This document shows, piece after piece, positions 4,353-4,895 of a DNA stretch of 37,527 bases (positions within the stretch are counted from its first letter, which is position 1; each line of letters opens with the position of its first letter). The notes under the pieces are model-generated. The model was given only the letters and a program-made list of their open reading frames with translations, was not told the origin of the DNA and did not search any database. Made by a program: the position numbers and the translations under genes. Source of the stretch: Dialister histaminiformans (GTDB lineage: Bacteria > Bacillota > Negativicutes > Veillonellales > Dialisteraceae). The DNA lies in assembly GCF_900103425.1 (NCBI RefSeq), contig NZ_FMXA01000017.1, positions 1 to 37,527 of the forward strand, in the 5' to 3' direction.

Positions 4353-4395
4353 CAAAAAGTCCCATACATGCTTCTTATCCTGCATGTACGGGACT
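4353..4395 (-). terminator. terminator after the T-box-controlled peptide gene
   Basis: On the minus strand a 14-bp stem (arms 4382-4395 and 4358-4371, with one G-T pair) and a 10-base loop are followed by TTTT. It lies 35 bases after the stop of the 42-residue ORF and before the sugar-kinase promoter, so the T-box transcript should end here. Confidence 0.8.
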
Positions 4396-4429
4396 GATAT
4401 CCTGCTTTGGATACACCAGACGACAGATA

Positions 4430-4558
4430 TTAACCGGCTACATCCACATCCTGTTCAAAAAACTGATGAAATGCCGGACCGGAAATACCGACAAAAAGGA
4501 GGCAGCTGCACAGGTCCCACCAGAATGCATTCATTTTCTTTTCTACTAACTGACCCAT
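4430..4558 (-). CDS. 42-residue predicted membrane peptide under T-box control
   Basis: This is a short ORF of 42 codons starting with ATG at 4558, preceded by a strong ribosome binding site (AAAGGAG, nine-base spacer). The product begins MGQLVEKK, has a hydrophobic segment from about residue 11 to 25 containing FWWDLCSCLLFVGI, and ends acidic (EQDVDVAG). This suggests one short membrane span with two cysteines and two tryptophans. I do not recognise a family. It is the only gene between the T-box terminator and a second strong terminator. Dedicated regulation, a good ribosome binding site and tight flanking signals argue that it is a real gene rather than leader sequence. Its function is unknown; a small subunit of an amino-acid transporter encoded elsewhere is one guess. 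Confidence 0.65.
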   Translation of the reverse strand: MGQLVEKKMNAFWWDLCSCLLFVGISGPAFHQFFEQDVDVAG

Positions 4559-4591
4559 AATTTTGTTCTCCTTTCATCGGTTTAACCAAAT

Positions 4592-4860
4592 AAAAAAACT
4601 TCTGTCCCTCTGTAAGGGACGGAAGTTCCGTGATTCTCACCCAAATTCATATGTATGTCACCATACATACCTCTGTAAGTTCTCTGGCTGACGCCTTGTA
4701 AACTCTGCTGCTGTAACGGGCAGTCCCGAATAAATCTACTGCTGTTTCGACTTATTCCGCTCAGAAATGCACTTCAGTTTCCTATCCATATCCCGCTCGC
4801 ACTCCCCGGGACTCGCTGTGCTGTATTCAGCCACCTACTCTTTTCTTCATTGCTTTGATA
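4592..4860 (-). promoter_or_regulatory. T-box riboswitch (tRNA-sensing leader)
   Basis: The leader shows the full T-box order. Stem I has the AGCGAG bulge and GGGGAGTG-type distal loop (about 4791-4818) and a specifier loop with AGTAG on one side and GAAGTGCA on the other (about 4770). Stem II is GAATAAGT/ATTTATTC. The IIA/B element has CGGG-ACTG-CCCG followed by TTACAG. Stem III is an 8-bp hairpin at about 4651-4670. The T-box proper is TTGGGTGAGAATCACGG (4628-4644), where the usual GTGG/CCGC helix is replaced by a compensating GTGA/TCAC. An intrinsic terminator follows (arms 4615-4626 and 4598-4609, then seven T). The specifier is ambiguous: TGC (Cys) fits the spacing to the following GAG and the trailing purine, while GTG (Val) directly follows GAA. 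Confidence 0.82.
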
Positions 4861-4866
4861 CATTTA

Positions 4867-4895
4867 ATATTATCACTACGTTTTTGCCTTGTCAA
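4867..4895 (-). promoter_or_regulatory. promoter of the T-box transcript
   Basis: Consensus TTGACA (4890-4895), 17-base spacer, TAATAT (4867-4872) on the minus strand. The start of transcription should fall near 4860, immediately before stem I of the T-box. Confidence 0.85.

Follow-up and report, generated by a model that had tools for sequence, protein, structure and literature searches.

A T-box leader with a cysteine-type specifier in front of a conserved small protein in Dialister histaminiformans

The window, by which we mean the whole stretch of 37,527 nucleotides of Dialister histaminiformans DNA that was analyzed, contains a compact transcription unit between positions 4,895 and 4,353. 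All elements that an earlier note on this DNA had named were found on the minus strand where it had placed them, and among them the promoter, the 42-codon open reading frame with its good ribosome-binding site and the strong second terminator are present as claimed:

4867..4895, minus strand: sigma-70-type promoter TTGACA-17-TAATAT with an extended TG before the -10 element, 10/12 consensus matches
4612..4859, minus strand: T-box leader with stem I, stem II, stem III and antiterminator (RF00230, 93.6 bits, E 2e-19)
4775-4768, minus strand: specifier loop GAAG-UGC-A (AGUA/GAA motif plus triplet)
4769..4771, minus strand: specifier triplet UGC (Cys), from the column alignment with other T-boxes
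4632..4639, minus strand: T-box bulge UGAGAAUC, 8 nt, from the covariance match and folding
4616..4642, minus strand: antiterminator with GGG/CCC and a 5-bp helix around the bulge, from the fold
4595..4629, minus strand: T-box terminator hairpin followed by a U-tract, from the fold (antiterminator/terminator z -4 to -5)
4568..4574, minus strand: ribosome-binding site AAAGGAG, 9 nt upstream of the ATG at 4558, read from the sequence
4430..4558, minus strand: 42-codon ORF, MGQLVEKKMNAFWWDLCSCLLFVGISGPAFHQFFEQDVDVAG, based on relatives and purifying selection
4358..4395, minus strand: second intrinsic terminator (-23.4 kcal/mol, z -6.4) with a U-tract at 4357-4353
4347-4320, minus strand: weak promoter-like site of the next gene (pfkB-type kinase)

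The T-box leader itself, which had been recognized by eye, is matched over its full length by the Rfam covariance model RF00230, although the score of 93.6 bits (4859-4612) barely exceeds the gathering score of 93 bits, and the genome of Dialister histaminiformans contains 18 T-boxes in all, this one included. The proposed T-box/terminator switch also withstands scrutiny, as the antiterminator (4642-4616) and the terminator (4629-4595) have the CGUCCC strand in common and are hence mutually exclusive. An equivalent antiterminator fold is found in most relatives. Among the leaders compared, the one in the window is most similar to those that precede the peptide genes of Dialister (0.67-0.70 identity), which is what joint inheritance of leader and ORF would produce, although the position of the window leader in the tree is weakly supported.

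The earlier note had named no amino acid for this leader, and by eye a choice between GUG and UGC cannot be made, because the loop reads GAAGUGCA. The window specifier loop carries AGUA ... GAAG-UGC-A. In the covariance alignments of T-boxes from the same genome, valS has GUC in the specifier column, thrS has ACC, pheS has UUC, and cysS and cysE-cysK both have UGC; the T-box of the window has UGC in this column. In relatives with GAAUUGC, the UGC is kept and the GUG is lost, the variable base being the one before the triplet. In Veillonellales, T-boxes of this type lie in front of genes for an O-acetylhomoserine/O-acetylserine (OAH/OAS) sulfhydrylase (TIGR01326, 648 bits), cysteine synthase, binding proteins of ABC transporters and DAACS symporters, and the SBP_bac_3 binding proteins are nearest to a cystine model, yet far below its cut-off. 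Taken together, the specifier column, the GAAUUGC relatives, the downstream cysteine genes and the UCCA end of tRNA-Cys make cysteine most likely the amino acid sensed, and the two features of a cysteine-specific T-box, a UGC specifier and cysteine genes downstream within the same leader group, are both found here. Sensing of valine via GUG would be in line with the possible reading GAA-GUG-CA and with a tRNA-Val located in the window, but the anticodon of this tRNA is GAC, and as the alignment columns, the relatives and the downstream genes all speak for UGC, we rejected the valine reading, whose probability we consider close to negligible. The T-boxes of cysS, cysE-cysK, cysK and the OAH/OAS sulfhydrylase share the UGC specifier, the leader type and the regulon with the window, whereas they differ in their target, which in the window is a small protein, and in their bulge, which reads UGGNACC instead of UGAGAAUC.

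Some arrangements of T-boxes at other loci are recorded here as separate observations. A tandem pair of cysteine T-boxes (L070, G002:C1:25000-28600, minus strand) lies in front of a gene which we take to be of the glutathione-S-transferase type (YqjG-like). The T-box at L001 1501-1774 (G000:C36:28157-28430) contains a duplicated GGGUGGUACCGCG segment and has no clear gene directly behind it. Two divergent T-boxes about 250 bases apart (L005 and L012, G000:C15:128101-128746) are each followed by a gene for a branched-chain-type binding protein, and at L014 830-1710 the RNase P RNA, the raiA RNA and the cysS T-box follow each other on the same strand.

The bulge of the antiterminator deserves separate consideration. 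With UG(A)GAAUC it is one base longer than the usual 7-nt UGGNACC, in which UGGN complements the NCCA of the tRNA. The T-boxes of the other peptide copies contain the exact UGGA, which is the complement of the UCCA end of the tRNA-Cys from the genome of the window. The bulge variant of the window also precedes the DAACS gene of its own genome and occurs in G001, G009 and G010, and its departure from UGGN could weaken the response of this T-box. Bulges with an extra base (UGAGAAUC, UGUGAAUC, UGGUAAUC) were observed in cysteine T-boxes at window positions 4632-4639 and at L008, L039, L044, L045, L070, L073, L077 and L087, and in these the UG.GA-UCCA pairing is still possible with one base bulged out. 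Both genomes of the genus additionally contain, after the normal tRNA-Cys, a second and divergent tRNA-Cys (GCA), whose position 33 is a C and whose anticodon stem shows a compensatory change; G004 contains a similar tRNA. The loci are:

L115 1582-1656 (G000:C16:13835-13909): second tRNA-Cys
L117 1501-1575: second tRNA-Cys
L129: second tRNA-Cys

A link between the odd bulge and this second tRNA-Cys is not supported, because in G009 and G010 the bulge occurs but the second tRNA does not.

The unit of T-box and ORF is present in seven copies in 5 of the 12 Dialisteraceae genomes, with the T-box directly in front of the ORF each time, and the relatives carrying the peptide belong to Dialister. 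The ORF is therefore kept behind the same leader and is not substituted by a larger gene in relatives, a point on which, as on the covariance match of the T-box, the earlier note had made its reading depend; neither check spoke against that reading. The core motif, scanned against 84,980 species, detected the peptide nowhere outside Dialisteraceae, an HMM search of 380 Negativicutes genomes detected it in Dialisteraceae only, and it was absent from the viral contigs searched. Three further matches of the HMM search (E 0.003-0.006) were treated as chance because no T-box at gathering score is nearby. Across the copies the protein has a length of about 36-44 residues, and 12 positions are invariant (M1, G2, W14, C19, L20, L21, F22, G24, P28, A29, F30 and F33). 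Two of the copies (L020 and L021) differ by 10 synonymous and 0 amino-acid changes and the pairwise dN/dS values are mostly 0.04-0.3, with the comparisons that include the window being near saturation at synonymous sites. The lack of nonsynonymous changes and the low dN/dS argue for selection on the product and not on the RNA alone, and judged from this substitution pattern the ORF is under purifying selection as a protein.

For the peptide of the window, AlphaFold predicts a single helix covering residues 2-39 with a mean pLDDT of 72. The best 19-residue Kyte-Doolittle mean is 1.44 in the window and 1.39-1.54 in the relatives, which is just below the usual threshold, and the hydrophobic central segment is retained in every copy. 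Of the parts of the earlier description, membrane insertion is the one that is weakly supported: one helix is predicted, the hydropathy is borderline for a membrane segment, and the peptide is probably inserted into the membrane as this single helix. In agreement with the statement that no family could be recognized, searches of Pfam, NCBIfam and PHROGs returned no family match, and a match to ANKH (E 0.048) was attributed to chance. We conclude that the ORF represents a new small-protein family of Dialister-type gut bacteria, which is real and conserved and stands under a known type of switch.

The genomic context differs between the copies. In the window and at L022 the unit stands alone with no neighboring transporter; in both cases the next gene is unrelated, and at L022 a terminator-like hairpin was found by inspection after the ORF. 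In G002, G005 and G007 a further cysteine T-box comes next and leads an operon of a UroD-like gene and an amino-acid ABC transporter; from the sequence, no promoter is evident between the unit and this operon. In G006, one copy of the unit has a second T-box and a gene for a binding protein behind it. The idea of a T-box dedicated to a single peptide consequently applies to the window and to some relatives, but not to the three genomes in which the UroD-like/ABC operon follows. The genome of the window lacks both the UroD-like gene and the orthologous ABC permease, which therefore cannot be obligatory partners of the peptide. All five genomes with the peptide also have a DAACS symporter under the kind of T-box found in the window, and DAACS with this T-box also occurs where the peptide is absent (G001, G009 and G010).

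Between cysteine T-boxes and genes for enzymes or transporters we also observed short ORFs, 8-23 codons long, which have a ribosome-binding site and contain an Arg-Cys-Arg-like core (MMERRCRS, MAGIRCRMCSAG, MMDFRCRMMEKK, MKRCRHCRKAGDS, MNGNRRCQREIP, MYHKRKKQARRNCKAACPLLWEY and MKIKNIMVFKDTRCRSCRLNG):

L008, from position 1781 of the reverse complement, minus strand: short ORF before DAACS in the genome of the window
L006 2503, minus strand: short ORF in the cysE-cysK gap
L071 1914, L072 620, L075, L079, L083, L084, L085 2081: further short ORFs

By analogy with the anti-TRAP operon and the mycobacterial poly-Cys leaders, they look as if they added a translational level of cysteine sensing to that of the T-box.

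What the sequence shows is the leader, its specificity, the ORF with its selection as a protein and the terminator behind it. By analogy with the T-box family, we assume that the leader in the window terminates transcription as long as tRNA-Cys is charged. Under cysteine shortage, uncharged tRNA-Cys with its UCCA end would pair with the UGC specifier as well as with the bulge of the antiterminator, RNA polymerase would read through, and the protein of about 36-44 residues would be made, in the window from a short transcript of its own. The product may be a single-helix membrane protein that aids or tunes the uptake of cysteine, cystine or a precursor. The candidate partner would be the DAACS symporter with the same T-box, and in some Dialister, instead or in addition, the cystine-like ABC transporter whose operon includes the peptide gene. 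In size, in the single helix and in the proposed mode of action the peptide resembles accessory membrane proteins of the MetS, KdpF and AcrZ type, but it is without sequence match in NCBIfam or Pfam. Membrane insertion and an accessory or regulatory role in uptake are less supported than the switching. On balance we lean slightly toward a cysteine T-box that controls one small protein, likely a single-helix membrane helper or tuner of cysteine/cystine uptake. The stricter version, a family of membrane microproteins that is switched on only by uncharged tRNA-Cys and that binds and adjusts a cysteine/cystine transporter, is considerably more tentative.

A small target that is neither a synthetase nor a biosynthetic enzyme nor a transporter is likewise found behind the Trp T-box of Bacillus subtilis, where the product is anti-TRAP (AT, rtpA), a protein of 53 aa. 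Anti-TRAP is soluble, binds zinc and has TRAP as its target, and its T-box responds to tRNA-Trp, whereas the peptide described here is unrelated in sequence, is linked to tRNA-Cys, is predicted to be a hydrophobic single helix and has a CSC only instead of two CxxC zinc motifs. The anti-TRAP gene BSU02530 is a T-box-controlled hypothetical gene that was re-annotated (PMC2494555), and this precedent together with the borderline hydropathy would allow for a regulator whose target is a transcription or sensor protein of sulfur metabolism and not a transporter. As zinc-binding CxxC pairs and similarity to any of the families searched are lacking and the central hydrophobic segment is kept in all copies, we regard such a regulator as quite unlikely. 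Small hydrophobic peptides often serve in the envelope, in thiol/redox protection or in the slowing of growth, and a membrane peptide with such a role during cysteine shortage, unrelated to uptake, would agree with the invariant Cys19 and with the stand-alone units in the window and at L022; the three genomes in which the peptide gene shares an operon with an amino-acid ABC transporter speak against this explanation, which we consider unlikely.

A further explanation is that the ORF is a leader peptide whose Cys codons are sensed during translation to control the downstream gene, so that its product would have no function. The ORF holds one to two Cys codons, short Cys-Arg leader ORFs exist in this regulon, and G002, G005, G006 and G007 have a second T-box and a gene downstream in the same orientation. 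Only a single Cys codon is conserved, however, and the conservation of amino acids spans the whole ORF including residues distant from the Cys codons. In the window and at L022 a terminator-like hairpin and then an unrelated gene follow, and the ORFs that are likely leaders are separate from the unit, with 8-23 codons and Arg-Cys-Arg. One conserved Cys codon, selection at the protein level and a terminator behind the ORF are not the features of an attenuator leader peptide, and we hold this explanation to be very improbable.

Anti-TRAP was the only precedent that came out of our literature searches on cysteine T-boxes of Dialister and on T-boxes controlling small membrane proteins. Catalogues of T-boxes consist almost wholly of genes for synthetases, biosynthesis and transporters, and in one survey 8% of T-boxes stood upstream of genes whose function was unknown or unrelated (PMC2494555). 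In the present case a conserved and selected small-protein family is the output, of a length below what routine annotation captures. Its physiological signal, cysteine shortage, can be read from the riboswitch, which in this way gives the microprotein a testable role. This suggests that more cases are to be expected from scans for T-boxes followed by very short ORFs. If the stricter version, with binding to a transporter, holds true, the unit would be a T-box with a post-translational regulator of uptake as its sole output.
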